The position numbers and the translations under genes are program-made. The notes beneath the pieces are model-generated. The model saw only the letters and a program-made list of their open reading frames with translations, was not told where the DNA came from and did not search any database. This document shows, piece after piece, positions 51,496 through 58,941 of a DNA stretch of 64,000 bases. Within the stretch, counting starts at the first letter, position 1, and each line of letters starts with the position of its first letter. Origin of the DNA: Clostridiales bacterium (lineage in GTDB: Bacteria > Bacillota > Clostridia > Oscillospirales > UBA644); NCBI GenBank assembly GCA_016281915.1, contig JAEEJO010000037.1, forward strand, positions 1-64,000, read 5' to 3'.

Positions 51496-51523
51496 TTGAC
51501 AAAAATGATTTTTGTGCTATAAT
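51496..51523 (+). promoter_or_regulatory. near-consensus promoter of aromatic operon leader
   Basis: TTGACA (51496-51501), 16 nt, TATAAT (51518-51523). Confidence 0.85.
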
Positions 51524-51554
51524 ACTCGCATATTTATTTAGCACGGAGCAGGCT

Positions 51555-51641
51555 ATGACAAGGTCCCGTAATTTTACAGCTGAATATTACTTTTTCGGTT
51601 TTGCATTTTTCTTTACGCAAAGCCCGGTCGTGTTTAGCTGA
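51555..51641 (+). CDS. Phe/Tyr-rich attenuator leader peptide, 28 aa
   Basis: MTRSRNFTAEYYFFGFAFFFTQSPVVFS; GGAG RBS 6 nt upstream; 8 Phe and 2 Tyr; below ORF-track size cutoff. Confidence 0.85.
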   Translation: MTRSRNFTAEYYFFGFAFFFTQSPVVFS

Positions 51642-51724
51642 AAAGTGTAGGGATTAAGATCAAAAGCTCCTGACAATACACGTTATCCTCACAGCTGAAC
51701 ACAGGCTGTGAGATTTTTTATTTT
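51577..51724 (+). promoter_or_regulatory. transcription attenuator with alternative helices 1:2, 2:3, 3:4
   Basis: Seg1 CAGCTGAATAT 51577-51587; seg2 GTGTTTAGCTG 51630-51640; seg3 CAGCTGAACAC 51692-51702; terminator CTCACAGC/GCTGTGAG 51688-51695/51705-51712; 1:2 and 2:3 each 11 contiguous pairs (3 and 1 GU). Confidence 0.85.
51688..51724 (+). terminator. intrinsic (attenuator) terminator in aromatic operon leader
   Basis: CTCACAGC TGAACACAG GCTGTGAG ATTTTTTATTTT, ending just before the DAHP synthase RBS. Confidence 0.9.
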
Positions 51725-51737
51725 CGGAGGAATTATT

Positions 51738-52742
51738 ATGATAGTACTTCTCAAACCCAATCCTGACAAGGCGCAACTTGACAGTCTTATTCAATGGCTT
51801 GAATCAAAGGGCGTTGAAATTCATCCTACAGTAGGTAAGACCCAGACGATACTCGGTCTTGTAGGCGATACTTCACATCTTGATATAGATCTCATTGCGG
51901 CACTCGATATCGTTGCGGGCGTTCGCAGGGTCCAGGAGCCGTATAAAAACGCAAACAGAAAGTTCCATCCCGACGACACAGTCATCAAGGTTGGAAACAC
52001 ATATATAGGAGGAGGAAACCTGACGATAATCGCAGGCCCCTGCTCCGTTGAGTCTGAAGAACAGATTTGTCAGATAGCCGAACAAGTAAAGAAAAGCGGC
52101 GCCACGCTTCTTCGCGGCGGAGCCTTCAAGCCAAGGACGTCCCCCTACTCGTTTCAGGGGTTGAGAGACGAAGGGCTGAAGCTTCTGTCGGTTGCAAAAA
52201 AGATGACGGGGTTGCCGATAGTTACCGAGATAATGGATATCGCTCATCTTGATTCTTTTGACGACGTGGACGTGATACAGGTCGGGGCAAGGAACATGCA
52301 GAATTTCGAGCTGTTAAAGGCGCTTGGCACGACCCGAAAGCCCATACTTTTAAAAAGAGGTCTTTCTTCGACATATGAAGAGCTTCTTATGAGCGCCGAA
52401 TATATTATGGCGGGCGGCAACAATAATGTTATTCTTTGTGAACGCGGAATACGCACATTTGAAACATATACAAGAAACACACTTGATATTTCGGCAATAC
52501 CTGTTCTTAAACAGCTCAGCCATCTGCCGGTAATAATCGATCCGAGCCATGCTTCAGGCAAATCCGCACTTGTCGCTCCCCTCGCGTGCGCTGCCGTTGC
52601 AGCAGGAGCGGACGGATTGATAATAGAAGTCCACAACGACCCTGAACATGCTCTCTGCGACGGTCCGCAGTCGATACGTCCGGAGGCGTTTGACAAGCTT
52701 GTAAAGAAACTTGATAAAATCTCAATGGCAACAAAAGACTGA
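51738..52742 (+). CDS. aroF: 3-deoxy-7-phosphoheptulonate synthase (DAHP synthase, AroF/AroG type I-beta)
   Basis: AGPCSVESEEQICQIAEQVKKSGATLLRGGAFKPRTSPYSFQG, IDPSHASGKSALV. Confidence 0.97.
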   Translation: MIVLLKPNPDKAQLDSLIQWLESKGVEIHPTVGKTQTILGLVGDTSHLDIDLIAALDIVAGVRRVQEPYKNANRKFHPDDTVIKVGNTYIGGGNLTIIAGPCSVESEEQICQIAEQVKKSGATLLRGGAFKPRTSPYSFQGLRDEGLKLLSVAKKMTGLPIVTEIMDIAHLDSFDDVDVIQVGARNMQNFELLKALGTTRKPILLKRGLSSTYEELLMSAEYIMAGGNNNVILCERGIRTFETYTRNTLDISAIPVLKQLSHLPVIIDPSHASGKSALVAPLACAAVAAGADGLIIEVHNDPEHALCDGPQSIRPEAFDKLVKKLDKISMATKD

Positions 52743-52767
52743 CACGGTCTCAAAGGAGAAAACTGCG

Positions 52768-53832
52768 ATGAACAGGCGAACCGTAAGGATCAACGTTCAG
52801 AACGGATATGACGTTATAATAGAAAACGGAATACTCTCTTCATGCGGAACGATAATCAGGCCAACGGTCAAAAACGGACGGGCAGCTGTAATTACCGACT
52901 CAAACGTAGCGCCGCTCTACCTGCAGACCGTTATTGCCGCTCTTGGTAAAGCGGATATCAAAGCTGACAGCTTTATTATCGAAGCCGGTGAACGCTCAAA
53001 GAATTTAGACACTCTTTCAGAGATACTTGAATTTCTGGCAGAAAAAAGATTCACGAAATCCGACACGGTTATCGCGCTGGGCGGAGGAGTTGTTGGAGAT
53101 ATCGCCGGATTTGCAGCCGCCGTTTATCTTCGCGGGGTAAGTATAATCCAGATACCCACAACGCTTCTTTCTGCGGTAGACTCATCCGTGGGAGGAAAAA
53201 CCGCTGTAAATCTGCGTTCGGGCAAGAACCTTGCAGGAGCGTTTATGCAGCCGGCTGCCGTTATATTCGATCCAGATGCGCTTTCGTCGCTGCCGCGCAA
53301 AGAATTTGAGAACGGTATGGCGGAGGTTATAAAATACGGAGTGCTTTTCAGCGAAGAGCTTTTCGAAACCGTTAAAAACGGCGCAGACAGTAATAATATT
53401 GCCGAAATAGCAGAAAAATGCGTTGTTTTCAAAGGAAGGACCGTTGAAAACGATGAGTTTGACGCGGGAGAGAGAAAACTTCTGAACCTCGGTCATACGA
53501 TAGGTCATGCAATTGAAAAATGCAGTAATTATACGATTTCTCACGGGTTCGCAGTAGCGTCGGGAATGGCTATGGCGGCGCGAGCAGGAGAAAAAATGGG
53601 GATAACGCAAGCAGGAACGGCAGAGGCAATAGAAAAAGCGCTTGAAAAATATTCACTTCCGACCGATACGTCATTTGATCCCTGTTCCCTTGCGTCATGC
53701 GCTTTATCGGACAAAAAGCGGGCAGGCGAAACGATCACCGCGGTAATTCCCGAAAGAATAGGAAAGTGCAGGCTTCACGGCATATCGGTAGGCGAGCTTG
53801 AAGATTTTATAAAAAAAGGTAAAAAACAGTAA
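52768..53832 (+). CDS. aroB: 3-dehydroquinate synthase
   Basis: ALGGGVVGDIAGFAAAVYLRGVSIIQIPTTLLSAVDSSVGGKTAVN. Confidence 0.97.
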   Translation: MNRRTVRINVQNGYDVIIENGILSSCGTIIRPTVKNGRAAVITDSNVAPLYLQTVIAALGKADIKADSFIIEAGERSKNLDTLSEILEFLAEKRFTKSDTVIALGGGVVGDIAGFAAAVYLRGVSIIQIPTTLLSAVDSSVGGKTAVNLRSGKNLAGAFMQPAAVIFDPDALSSLPRKEFENGMAEVIKYGVLFSEELFETVKNGADSNNIAEIAEKCVVFKGRTVENDEFDAGERKLLNLGHTIGHAIEKCSNYTISHGFAVASGMAMAARAGEKMGITQAGTAEAIEKALEKYSLPTDTSFDPCSLASCALSDKKRAGETITAVIPERIGKCRLHGISVGELEDFIKKGKKQ

Positions 53833-55089
53833 ATGGACGTAATGATCACACCGTCTGCGCTATCGGGCAGGATAAGCGCCATCGGTTCGAAATCGGATAT
53901 TCACAGGCTGCTTATCTGCTCTGCCGTTTCTGACGTGCAAACAACAATAGACGGTTTTTTTTCGTCGGACGATATTGTTGCAACGGTAAACTGTATAAGG
54001 GCGCTTGGGGCAAAAGCTGAGATTTCAGGAAATATTTGCGCCATAACACCGATCGGTTCCCCAGAACAACGTCCTTCATTTGATTGCGGCGAAAGCGGAA
54101 CCACGCTACGGTTTATCCTGCCCATCGCATGCGCTCTTTGCGAAAATGCAGAGTTCAGCGGAAGGGGACGTTTACCCGAAAGACCGATCAGCGAGCTTAT
54201 GGAAGCTCTTGAATCGGGCGGAGTGATTTTTTCGAAGACAAAGCTTCCTTTTTCCACCAAAGGCACGCTTTCGGCAGGAAAATTCTTTTTGCCGGGGAAC
54301 GTAAGCTCACAGTACATATCTGGCTTGATGACAGCGCTTTGTCTTATTAAAGGTAAAAGCGAAATATCTCTCACCTCCCCTCTTGAATCTGCCGGTTACG
54401 TTGATATGACGCTGTCATCGCTTCGTCTTTTCGGCGCAGATATTTCCGCTGAAGGCGGGAAATATACTGTTTACGGAAAAGAGCGGCTAACCTCGCCCGG
54501 CAGCGTAAAGGCGGACGGAGACTGGTCAAACGCACTGTTTTTTATGACGGCAGGCGCAGTATGCGGCGATATTGAGATAACAGGGCTGAATACGTCAAGC
54601 GTTCAGGGAGACAAAAAAACGGTTGAGATCTTGAAACGGTTCGGCGCAGAGATATCATTGAAAAATGAAGTAATCAAAATAAAGAAAAGCGTTCTTCACG
54701 GCTGCGACACCGATATTTCACAGATTCCGGACAGCTTACCGGCGCTTTCGGTCGTTGCCGCATTTGCAAAAGGCGATTCAAGATTTACAGGAGCGGGAAG
54801 GCTTCGTCTGAAAGAAAGCGACAGGCTTACGGCTGTTTGCAGAATGATAAACGCTCTTGGCGGAAAAGCGGAAGAAACGGACGACGGAATCACCGTTCAC
54901 GGCACCGAAGGACTTTCGGGCGGAACGGCAGAAGGCGAAAACGACCATAGAATAGTAATGGCCGCCACCGTTGCGGCATTTGCATGCAAAGAAAAAACCG
55001 TTATAAAAGGAGCGCAAGCGGTCAATAAATCGTATCCGACATTTTTTGAGGATATAAGTAAACTCGGAGGAGTAACAAATGTCATCTGA
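53833..55089 (+). CDS. aroA: 3-phosphoshikimate 1-carboxyvinyltransferase (EPSP synthase)
   Basis: GSKSDIHRLLICSAVSD, DCGESGTTLRFILPIACA, RLKESDRLTAVCRMINALGG. Confidence 0.96.
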   Translation: MDVMITPSALSGRISAIGSKSDIHRLLICSAVSDVQTTIDGFFSSDDIVATVNCIRALGAKAEISGNICAITPIGSPEQRPSFDCGESGTTLRFILPIACALCENAEFSGRGRLPERPISELMEALESGGVIFSKTKLPFSTKGTLSAGKFFLPGNVSSQYISGLMTALCLIKGKSEISLTSPLESAGYVDMTLSSLRLFGADISAEGGKYTVYGKERLTSPGSVKADGDWSNALFFMTAGAVCGDIEITGLNTSSVQGDKKTVEILKRFGAEISLKNEVIKIKKSVLHGCDTDISQIPDSLPALSVVAAFAKGDSRFTGAGRLRLKESDRLTAVCRMINALGGKAEETDDGITVHGTEGLSGGTAEGENDHRIVMAATVAAFACKEKTVIKGAQAVNKSYPTFFEDISKLGGVTNVI

Positions 55090-56170
55090 ATACGGCAAAG
55101 CACTGAAAATATCCGTTTTCGGACAGTCGCACGGCAAAGCGATCGGTGTAAATATAGACGGTCTTCCCGCAGGCGAAGAAATAGATGAAAAAGAGCTTAT
55201 TTCTTTTATGCAGAGGCGCGCACCGGGGAAAAGCGACGTTACGACGCACAGAAAAGAGGCTGACACGCCTGTTTTTTTATCCGGTATAGTGGACGGGAAA
55301 ACCTGCGGGGTACCCGTATGCGCAGTGATTGAAAATAAGGATGCTCATTCCTCTGATTACAGCGGATTTTCAAATACGCCTCGACCGGGGCACGCAGATT
55401 ACACTTCCGTGATAAAATACGGCGAATCTGCGGATATAAGAGGCGGAGGTCATCTTTCGGGACGGCTCACTGCGCCAATCTGCATAGCAGGCGGGATCGC
55501 AAAGCAGATCCTTGAAAAGAGAGGAATTTATATCGGAGCTCATATTTCTTCGGTTTGCAGGGTAAAAGATGACGGATTCCCGCTTTTTCCGACTGAAAAA
55601 CTGTTTGAAGAAATAGCGAAAAAGCCGTTTCCCGTTATAAACGACGAGATCGGGGATGCGATGAAAAAAGTGATCCTTTCCGCAGCAAACGATCTTGATT
55701 CGGTCGGAGGATGCGTTGAATGCGCTATTATCGGATTACCTGCGGGAATAGGTTCGCCGATGTTTGACGGCATTGAAAACCGCATTGGAGCCGCAATATT
55801 CGGAATTCCGGCAATAAAAGGGATAGAGTTCGGCGCAGGATTTCGATCTTCCGAGATGTACGGGTCTGAAAACAATGATCCGTTTTATGCAAAAGACGGC
55901 AAGGTAATGACGGAAACGAACAACTGCGGCGGTATACTCGGAGGAATATCCACAGGTATGCCGATAGTGTTCAATGTCGCCTTCAAGCCAACTCCTTCTA
56001 TCGGGAAGGAACAAAGAACGGTAGATCTGAAAAGCATGACCGACACGCATATAACCGTCGGGGGAAGGCATGATCCCTGCGTTGCAGTGAGGGCTGTGCC
56101 TGCGGTTGAAGCAGTTGCGGCGACAGTGATACTTGATATGTTGCTGGAGGAGAATAATGGAATTATCTGA
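55079..56170 (+). CDS. aroC: chorismate synthase
   Basis: FGQSHGKAIGVNIDGLPAGEEID, RPGHADYTSVIKYG, GRHDPCVAVRAVPAVEAVAA. Confidence 0.97.
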   Translation: MSSEYGKALKISVFGQSHGKAIGVNIDGLPAGEEIDEKELISFMQRRAPGKSDVTTHRKEADTPVFLSGIVDGKTCGVPVCAVIENKDAHSSDYSGFSNTPRPGHADYTSVIKYGESADIRGGGHLSGRLTAPICIAGGIAKQILEKRGIYIGAHISSVCRVKDDGFPLFPTEKLFEEIAKKPFPVINDEIGDAMKKVILSAANDLDSVGGCVECAIIGLPAGIGSPMFDGIENRIGAAIFGIPAIKGIEFGAGFRSSEMYGSENNDPFYAKDGKVMTETNNCGGILGGISTGMPIVFNVAFKPTPSIGKEQRTVDLKSMTDTHITVGGRHDPCVAVRAVPAVEAVAATVILDMLLEENNGII

Positions 56171-57296
56171 GATAAGAAAGAAAATAGACGAAACAGACGA
56201 AAAGCTTCTGCCTCTTTTTCTGGAAAGGATGAATCTTTCCGCCGAAGCGGTGAAATATAAAAAAGAGCATTCACTCCCGATCCTGAACAAAACAAGAGAA
56301 AATGAAATACTCCAGCGCGTAATGAGTGAAAGCGGAGATATGGAGCAATATGCGCACAGGCTGTATATGATGATTTTTGAGCTAAGCAGAGCATATCAGG
56401 CAACGCTGTTCAAAAACGGATCAAAAGTCAGAGAGGAAGCGGAAAGAGCGCTTTGCGAAACCGTAAATGAATTTCCGCAAAGAACCTCGGTAGCGTGTCA
56501 GGGAGTAAGAGGGGCTTATTCCGAAGAAGCAGCATCAAAAATGTTTCCGAGGGGCAATCTGATTTTTTTCAACTCCTTCGATGCTGTTTTTGAAGCGGTC
56601 GCAAGCGGATTTTGCCGTTATGGAGTAGTCCCCGTTGAAAACAGTTCAAACGGTTCCGTAAAAGCCGTATACGATCTTCTTCACACAAAAAACGTTAAGA
56701 TAGTAAAGAGCGGAAGGCTCTGCATACGTCATGAACTGATCGGTCTTCCGGGAACAAAGCCGGAGGATGTAAAAGAAATCCGTTCACACGAACAGGCGCT
56801 CGGTCAGTGCAGCGAGTACCTGAAAAGTCTTGGTACGACGGTAAAGATACAGCCTTTTCCCAACACGGCAACAGCGGCGAAATCGGTGGCTGACGGAAAG
56901 GACAAAAGCGTTGCGGCGATAGCATCCCACAGTGTGTGCGAGCTTTACGGGCTCGAATGCATCGCCGAAAACATACAAAACAGTGATAACAACTATACCC
57001 GCTTTATCTGTATTTCAAATAAAGCCGAAATATTTCCCGGTGCAAACAGGTTAAGTTTTGCCGTAGAATGCGAAAACAAGCCGGGAACGCTGTATTCGAT
57101 AATAGCAAAGATATCTGCGCTTGGAACAGATATCCTCAAGCTTGAAAGCTGTCCGATAACGGGAAGAAACTTTGATTTTGTTTTTTATTTCGAGATAGCG
57201 GCGAGCGTGAAAGACCCAAAGATAGTTTCTATGCTTGAAAGCCTTGAATACGAGTGCAAGAAGCTCATTTTCCTTGGCAATTATTCGGAGGATTGA
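56157..57296 (+). CDS. pheA: bifunctional chorismate mutase/prephenate dehydratase (P-protein) with C-terminal ACT domain
   Basis: ELSEIRKKIDETDEKLLPLFLERMNLSAEAVKYKKEH; VACQGVRGAYSEEAASKMFP; NNYTRFICISNK; FAVECENKPGTLYSIIAKI. Confidence 0.96.
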   Translation: MELSEIRKKIDETDEKLLPLFLERMNLSAEAVKYKKEHSLPILNKTRENEILQRVMSESGDMEQYAHRLYMMIFELSRAYQATLFKNGSKVREEAERALCETVNEFPQRTSVACQGVRGAYSEEAASKMFPRGNLIFFNSFDAVFEAVASGFCRYGVVPVENSSNGSVKAVYDLLHTKNVKIVKSGRLCIRHELIGLPGTKPEDVKEIRSHEQALGQCSEYLKSLGTTVKIQPFPNTATAAKSVADGKDKSVAAIASHSVCELYGLECIAENIQNSDNNYTRFICISNKAEIFPGANRLSFAVECENKPGTLYSIIAKISALGTDILKLESCPITGRNFDFVFYFEIAASVKDPKIVSMLESLEYECKKLIFLGNYSED

Positions 57297-58538
57297 ATGG
57301 AAGGCAGGATTTACGGACTTCTGGGCAGAAAACTCGGCCACAGCTATTCTGTATACGTTCACAAAAAACTCGGGAACAACGATTACAAGCTTTATGAAAT
57401 TGAACCGGAAGAGCTTGGCGATTTTATAAGGAATGAAAACGTCGGCGGACTGAACGTGACAATTCCGTATAAAGTCGAGGCGATGAAATACTGTGACGTT
57501 ATATCGCAGGAAGCCGAAAAGATCGGTGCTGTCAACACGGTAGTCAGACGCGGCGGAAAGATATACGGCTACAATACCGATAAATTTGGATTTATCAGCA
57601 TGCTTGAAAAGGGCGGCATAGACTTAGAGAATAAAAAGGTGATAATTCTCGGCAGCGGGGGCGCAAGCAAGACCGCATTATACTGTTCCGAGCTTCTTGG
57701 CGCAAAAGAGACAGTAATAATTTCAAGAAGCGGAGAGAATAATTACGGCAACATAGAAAAGCATTTTGATGCGGATATAATTATAAATGCCACACCAGTT
57801 GGCATGTTTCCCGAAAACGGGAAATCGCCGATAGATCTCACAAAATTCACCAAATGTGTCGGCGTTGCCGATATGATATATAATCCGTTGAGAACGCAGC
57901 TGCTGCTTGAGGCCGACGCGTTGGATATTCCGTGTATCGGAGGACTTTCCATGCTCACGGCGCAGGGAAAGAAATCTGCAGAACTGTTTTTCAACACCGA
58001 ATATCCCGACGATGCAACAGACAGCATAACACGTGAAATAGTCAGCGAAACAGAAAACATAGTACTGATCGGGATGCCGGGAAGCGGCAAGAGCGTTATC
58101 GGGCAAAAGCTTGCCGAGATATCGGGAAGAGAAATCATCGATACGGATGCGGAGGTTGAAAAGGAAACGAACAAAAAAATACCGCAGATATTTGCGGAAT
58201 ACGGTGAGGGAAAATTCAGAGAGATCGAAAGCAAAATAATCGCTTCTGCGGGCAAGCTGCACGGAAAGATAATAGTAACAGGCGGAGGAGCCGTAACGGT
58301 CGAGAAAAACTACGCTTCTCTCAAACAAAACGGACGTATCTATGAAATAATACGCGACCTGTCGCTTCTTGAAACACGCGGACGTCCGCTTTCGGAAAAC
58401 GCGAATCTTTCAGAAATGCTCGGCAAAAGACGTCCTCTTTACGAAAAATTCAGAGATACAGCCGTAAACAACGGAAAAACGCCGCTTGAAGCGGCGAATG
58501 AGATTTGGGGTGATTTCATTGAAAATTCTTGTGATTAA
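57297..58538 (+). CDS. fused shikimate dehydrogenase (AroE) - shikimate kinase (AroK)
   Basis: GLLGRKLGHSYS, NVTIPYKVEAMKYCD, NATPVGMFPE then IVLIGMPGSGKSVIGQKLAEISGREIIDTDAEVE in one frame. Confidence 0.95.
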   Translation: MEGRIYGLLGRKLGHSYSVYVHKKLGNNDYKLYEIEPEELGDFIRNENVGGLNVTIPYKVEAMKYCDVISQEAEKIGAVNTVVRRGGKIYGYNTDKFGFISMLEKGGIDLENKKVIILGSGGASKTALYCSELLGAKETVIISRSGENNYGNIEKHFDADIIINATPVGMFPENGKSPIDLTKFTKCVGVADMIYNPLRTQLLLEADALDIPCIGGLSMLTAQGKKSAELFFNTEYPDDATDSITREIVSETENIVLIGMPGSGKSVIGQKLAEISGREIIDTDAEVEKETNKKIPQIFAEYGEGKFREIESKIIASAGKLHGKIIVTGGGAVTVEKNYASLKQNGRIYEIIRDLSLLETRGRPLSENANLSEMLGKRRPLYEKFRDTAVNNGKTPLEAANEIWGDFIENSCD

Positions 58539-58941
58539 CGGGCCGAATATAAATATGCTCGGAATACGGGAGCCTGAGATTTACGGGAACAGAACATATG
58601 CTCAGCTGATAGAAATGATAAAAAAAGAAGCGGATACTGTCGGAGCCGAAGTTGAGTTTTTTCAGTCGAACCATGAGGGCGCGATAGTGGACGAAATACA
58701 GAGAGCGTATAACAGATTTGACGGTATCATCATCAACCCTGCGGCATATACACATACAAGCGTTGCGATAGCCGACGCGATAAAGGCCGTTGGAATCCCT
58801 GCCATTGAAGTGCATATATCAGATCCTGACACCCGTGAGGAATTCAGAAGGATATCCTACGTCAGACCCGTATGCGCGGCAACTGTAAAAGGAAAAGGAT
58901 TTGAAGGATATATCGAAGCGCTTCATATGTTGATAAAGTAA
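58510..58941 (+). CDS. aroQ: type II 3-dehydroquinate dehydratase
   Basis: ILVINGPNINMLGIREPEIYG, FFQSNHEGAIVDEI, NPAAYTHTSVAIADAI; GTG 58510 or TTG 58519 start. Confidence 0.96.
   Translation: MISLKILVINGPNINMLGIREPEIYGNRTYAQLIEMIKKEADTVGAEVEFFQSNHEGAIVDEIQRAYNRFDGIIINPAAYTHTSVAIADAIKAVGIPAIEVHISDPDTREEFRRISYVRPVCAATVKGKGFEGYIEALHMLIK

Follow-up and report, generated by a model that had tools for sequence, protein, structure and literature searches.

A predicted leader peptide attenuator with Tyr and Phe codons upstream of the aroF operon in Clostridia, and the relation of its codon composition to operon gene content

Results

Organization of the leader region and the aromatic operon

The 64,000-nucleotide stretch of DNA analysed here (the window) contains an aromatic biosynthesis operon in the order aroF-aroB-aroA-aroC-pheA-aroE/K-aroQ, with a his operon just upstream of its leader region (hisE to 51449). 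The layout is that of an extended sigma-70 promoter, a short leader ORF, an intrinsic terminator and then the aroF operon (Table 1). The leader ORF starts about 31 bases downstream of the extended -10 promoter, has its own start codon and ribosome-binding site, and carries clustered codons for Tyr and Phe, with F, Y or W at 8 of 10 residues; when the upstream region was dinucleotide-shuffled 3000 times, no equally rich ORF arose. The control codons fit the product of the operon, which makes Phe. In seven congeners the -35 and -10 elements of the leader promoter are kept, GGAG is retained near the same place in congeners, and the ORF is kept across the genus while its flanks vary. These results support the ORF as the leader peptide of the aromatic operon. 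No other convincing leader-plus-terminator candidate was found in the window, the region upstream of the his operon included. As far as seen, the joining of shikimate dehydrogenase and shikimate kinase in one ORF extends to the whole order.

Table 1. Positions of the leader elements and operon genes in the window
Feature	Position	Strand	Basis
Promoter, TTGACA-16-TATAAT with TG before -10	51496-51523	+	12/12 consensus matches; predicted from consensus alone
GGAG, likely ribosome-binding site of leader	51545-51548	+	sequence; 6 nt 5' of ATG
Leader peptide ORF, MTRSRNFTAEYYFFGFAFFFTQSPVVFS then stop	51555-51641	+	sequence reading; orthologues in 8/8 congeners with aroF
Control codons, Tyr	51585-51590	+	sequence reading
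Control codons, Phe	51591-51596, 51600-51602, 51606-51614	+	sequence reading
Region 1, CAGCTGAATAT (codes A-E-Y), pairs with region 2	51577-51587	+	minimum-energy fold; consensus fold of 7 congeners
Nested hairpin in 1:2 loop, 5' arm GGTTTTGC (codes G-F-A)	51597-51604	+	folds
Nested hairpin, 3' arm GCAAAGCC (codes Q-S-P)	51617-51624	+	folds
Region 2, GTGTTTAGCTG, overlaps stop codon, pairs with region 1 or 3	51630-51640	+	folds, duplex energies
Intrinsic terminator (regions 3 and 4), CTCACAGCT-GAACACA-GGCTGTGAG	51688-51712	+	terminator prediction, folds
Region 3 proper, CAGCTGAACAC (5' arm and loop of terminator)	51692-51702	+	folds
T6 run after terminator hairpin	51714-51719	+	sequence
aroF, DAHP synthase, B. 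subtilis/type I-beta kind	51738-52742	+	PRK08673, NCBIfam 491 bits (cut-off 335)
aroB	52711-53832 as listed; true start probably near 52759	+	TIGR01357; gene order
aroA	53833-55089	+	TIGR01356
aroC	55079-56170	+	TIGR00033
pheA, chorismate mutase-prephenate dehydratase	56133-57296	+	PRK11898 at 205 bits (below its cut-off of 219); chorismate mutase models
aroE-aroK fusion	57297-58538	+	aroE and shikimate kinase models match separate halves
aroQ, type II 3-dehydroquinate dehydratase	58486-58941	+	TIGR01088

RNA structure of the leader

Folding of the leader RNA identified three segments, regions 1, 2 and 3, that take part in mutually exclusive 1:2, 2:3 and 3:4 pairings. Region 1 (CAGCUGAAUAU) and region 3 (CAGCUGAACAC) are near-identical, and both are complementary to region 2 (GUGUUUAGCUG). 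Compared with shuffled versions, the fold had a z-score of -5.0, and the 2:3 pairing in the window reached -17.9 kcal/mol. In an alignment of seven congeners, the 11 antiterminator (2:3) pairs were standard in 74 of 74 cells, compared with 25-44% when the partner was slid, and the nested hairpin in the 1:2 loop was also retained.

Covariation in the genus alignment was uninformative because the sequences are too conserved, and we therefore used an arm-swap test. Across 131-133 leaders, the 2:3 duplex energy was -14.3, against -11.35 for both shuffled arms and swapped arms (Wilcoxon P = 1e-19 and 4e-18, respectively), and the 1:2 duplex energy was -13.4, against -10.9 and -10.5 for the same controls. 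Own arms thus pair better than arms swapped from other loci, indicating that each leader matches its own terminator. Since A-E-Y and G-F-A are encoded by pairing arms, much of the apparent conservation of the peptide reflects RNA pairing, and the non-aromatic leader residues are largely set by it.

Distribution of the leader before aroF

Searches for aroF yielded 59 genomes of relatives, 80 named loci and 259 genomes of the order, and we retained upstream short ORFs with at least 6 of 10 residues F, Y or W, the correct distance and a terminator. In two non-overlapping sets, 72 and 62-63 different leaders passed this filter, so that some 133 distinct leaders with this layout precede aroF in the GTDB order of the window and related Clostridia. 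The chance rate of such ORFs upstream was 2.4% in dinucleotide-shuffled and 2.2% in reverse-complemented regions. All eight congeners with aroF have an orthologous leader, and none of these is of unrelated composition; the Phe/Tyr-rich makeup is kept. The leader occurs in dozens of genera and has long been passed on vertically within the order, the cultured Oscillibacter valericigenes (L035) being among its bearers, and the results support dual Tyr/Phe control as the ancestral and commonest state of the family. The preliminary description had linked dual sensing to an operon serving all aromatic amino acids, which proved too broad: Trp is nearly absent from the leader cores (13 W among 1148 aromatic residues).

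At seven tyrA-free aroF loci (L261, L269, L271, L273, L274, L282 and L294), the short ORF is divergent (type SFLFSYGWARFMGAGFFGMGK). These ORFs have a Trp codon and a lower aromatic density and did not pass the filter; what they sense may differ.

Codon composition and operon content

In relatives, the common gene order places tyrA next after aroF, a position held by aroB in the window. Within the genus, tyrA is missing next to aroF in G000, G001, G005, G006 and G007 and present in G002, G004 and G009; it is lacking in all five genomes of the window sub-lineage. The genome of the window organism itself (G000, 95.75% complete) contains no PDH_N domain (PF02153, prephenate dehydrogenase) and no Phe hydroxylase, which makes Tyr auxotrophy probable; this trait is predicted to have arisen within the genus. 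The tyrA-bearing sisters have the leader EYFYYGFAFYF with four Tyr, whereas the tyrA-less lineage has EYYFFGFAFFF, EYFFFGFAFFF or EYFFFGFAFYF with one or two.

For operons that combine tyrA with further aro/pheA genes (n = 85), the Tyr/(Tyr+Phe) fraction of the leader was 0.44, and for those without tyrA (n = 27) it was 0.28; in two classes that were spotted post hoc and are descriptive, it was 0.80 before stand-alone aroF-tyrA (n = 6) and 0.24 before aroF-pheA (n = 3). Examples are CYYGYYYGFAYYYGK (L208) and NYYYGSRYYYAVF (L295) before stand-alone aroF-tyrA, whose surroundings were checked over several kilobases, and FFNGFFDFSFFGK before aroF-pheA (L164, L217). In set 1, operons with tyrA (n = 52) had leaders with a Tyr fraction of 0.457, compared with 0.271 for those lacking it (n = 16; P = 8e-6; phylogenetic regression, P = 9e-5). 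The same effect was predicted for set 2, the prediction being recorded before set 2 was fetched, and the fraction there was 0.464 for the 46 operons with tyrA and 0.288 for the 16 that lack it (P = 2.9e-5). A combined phylogenetic regression (n = 121, about 16 changes of tyrA state), with the AroF tree as a stand-in for the species tree, gave an effect of +0.145 for tyrA (P = 8e-7) and a further +0.337 for stand-alone tyrA (P = 2e-9). The tyrA effect held at phylogenetic signals of 0.675 and 1.0 (P = 8e-7 and 2e-5), and neither GC content nor Tyr use in AroF itself accounts for it. Exceptions were three tyrA-free loci with Tyr fractions of 0.44-0.5 (L161, L168, L211) and two tyrA-bearing loci below 0.2 (L097, L173); the genomes are mostly fragmented MAGs, in which single tyrA absences could be gaps. 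Several tyrA-free operons sit in genomes with tyrA elsewhere, and no T-boxes or other Rfam elements were found before these relocated tyrA genes.

Paralogous aroF loci within one genome differ in the same direction. In G140, the leader before aroB..pheA has six Phe and two Tyr codons (L247), whereas that before tyrA has seven Tyr and one Phe (L258). The same split, Phe-leaning before aroF-aroB..pheA and Tyr-dominated before aroF-tyrA, occurs in G232 (L280/L295) and G202 (L266/L207), an apparent division of labour after duplication in all three genomes.

These compositions bear on what the leader senses. An attenuator responding to Phe only, whose Tyr codons are kept merely since TAT/TAC pairs in region 1, is a possible but rather unlikely reading. 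In the window leader, the first of the two Tyr codons does lie within region 1, and a precedent exists in Corynebacterium, where the C. glutamicum aroR leader (Phe-Tyr-Phe) before the aroF DAHP synthase operon is reported to act by transcription attenuation under Phe limitation and not to respond to Tyr (Neshat et al. 2014, reviewed in PMC11802643); as described in that review, this actinobacterial leader has a single Tyr codon. Across the Clostridia family, however, region 1 contains only a minority of the Tyr codons, and the leaders of stand-alone aroF-tyrA pairs are Tyr-dominated. For the window lineage, in which tyrA was lost, mainly-Phe sensing is likely. The dual Tyr/Phe sensing suggested in the preliminary description is supported as the ancestral and commonest state of the family and fails as a gain through the Tyr pair of the window leader: Tyr codons are fewer in this lineage (two) than in the sisters that carry tyrA (four), and its operon is without tyrA.

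That the Tyr/Phe shift reflects neutral drift or shared ancestry, and not retuning to operon content, we regard as improbable. The leaders evolve fast, and the sister-pair sign tests included too few pairs for significance at the 0.05 level: on well-supported branches, 4.6 pairs followed the expected direction against 0.4 (median P = 0.125), and another such test gave P = 0.375. Nevertheless, the effect was confirmed in the second set, in phylogenetic regression and in same-genome paralogues. We consider it probable that dual Tyr/Phe attenuators occur across the order with a codon mix rewritten to match operon content, including Tyr-only leaders before aroF-tyrA and Phe-only leaders after tyrA loss, such that composition alone predicts the product.

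Resemblance to E. coli PheL

The E. coli K-12 pheL leader reads ATGAAACACATACCGTTTTTCTTCGCATTCTTTTTTACCTTCCCCTGA (NC_000913.3) and shares FAFFFT with the window leader. The preliminary description had read the window leader correctly, and the PheL sequence that it gave agrees with this record; it had attributed the match to convergence or to transfer of the control element. When the window core YYFFGFAFFFTQ was permuted, a word of at least 6 letters was shared with PheL in 1.9% of trials and one of at least 5 letters in 11%, and the window leader is the only one of the 133 Clostridia leaders with a six-letter PheL word. By itself, the FAFFFT match is weak evidence of kinship.

Transfer from a pheL-bearing proteobacterium, or in the reverse direction, has FAFFFT in its favour and is extremely improbable. 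A blastn search of the window leader against 20,395 E. coli records gave no match, and an Rfam search of the window leader region returned no leader family, T-box or riboswitch. At the FAFFFT position, congeners whose AroF is 94-95% identical have FAFFFK or FAFYFN and tyrA-bearing congeners have FAFYFS. No similarity to pheL beyond the Phe run was found, the G, A and downstream Q-S-P residues are dictated by the hairpin arm, and within the order the element has been inherited vertically. The absent DNA and Rfam matches and the differing congener residues led us to reject E. coli as a donor. Judged from these comparisons, the resemblance is convergence: with tyrA lost and Tyr codons replaced by Phe in the window lineage, its leader came to resemble the Phe-only PheL.

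Proposed mechanism

The terminator before the first gene, the exclusive pairings and the clustered codons make it very likely that the element attenuates transcription through the ribosome, by the trpL/pheL mechanism. It would match the aroF...pheA operon to the supply of charged tRNA for Phe and for Tyr, with codons retuned along with operon content. With ribosome footprints taken from the known trp mechanism, a shortage of tRNA-Phe or tRNA-Tyr would stall the translating ribosome at the Tyr/Phe codons over region 1, so that regions 2 and 3 could pair as the antiterminator, and the operon would be transcribed. When both charged tRNAs are plentiful, the ribosome would reach the stop codon and mask region 2, so that the 3:4 terminator forms; if the leader is not translated, 1:2 would form and termination would be the default. 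Selection may have retuned the control codons with the operon, giving Tyr-dominated leaders before aroF-tyrA alone, mixed leaders with tyrA plus pheA, and Phe-dominated leaders where tyrA is gone.

Control by a T-box or another riboswitch, with the ORF incidental, is barely credible in view of the empty Rfam search of the region (RF00230 included) and the conservation of the ORF between variable flanks, even though leuA-like and trpB-like genes of the same genome, and aroF in three relatives, are under T-boxes.

The T-boxes of the same genome precede a 2-isopropylmalate synthase-like gene (L112, C15:6195-6437) and a TrpB-like gene (L113, C75:22-267), so that T-boxes for Leu and Trp coexist in this genome with a predicted Phe/Tyr attenuator of the leader-peptide type. 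In the three same-order relatives, the T-box stands instead of the leader (L177:4304-4568; L184:4059-4299; L182:7270-7520, minus strand) and precedes a rearranged aroF-aroB-aroC-pheA-aroA-aroE/K operon without tyrA.

Discussion

The window element belongs to the same mechanism class as E. coli pheL-pheA, with a Phe-rich leader, competing hairpins and a terminator before an aromatic gene. It differs in that the E. coli leader controls pheA alone, has Phe codons only and shows no sequence kinship, whereas in the window the operon opens with a DAHP synthase gene from a different family and the leader contains Tyr codons as well. In Acholeplasma, the uORFC-13-1 motif places a Phe-codon upstream ORF and a terminator before aroF (24 representatives; PMC8632094); by its description, it is confined to Acholeplasma and environmental sequences, with at least one Phe and no Tyr reported. 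Classical leader-peptide attenuation is also known in Firmicutes, including Eubacteriales, for another amino acid and other operons, namely His leaders before hisS/hisZ (PMC2965389) and his operons (PMC9413887). The open-access literature searched appears to hold no earlier description of the Clostridia leader family, of Tyr-dominated leaders or of tyrA-linked retuning, nor an example of the predicted Tyr-specific leaders offered here.

The findings explain a cross-phylum peptide match without transfer. They also suggest that leader peptides attenuate aromatic biosynthesis operons in a large group of gut Clostridia, in which one would usually expect T-boxes. The leader codons change in step with the acquisition or loss of a gene that lies several hundred bases downstream, and the family may thereby provide a natural, replicated evolution experiment in which an attenuator changes the amino acid that it would sense.
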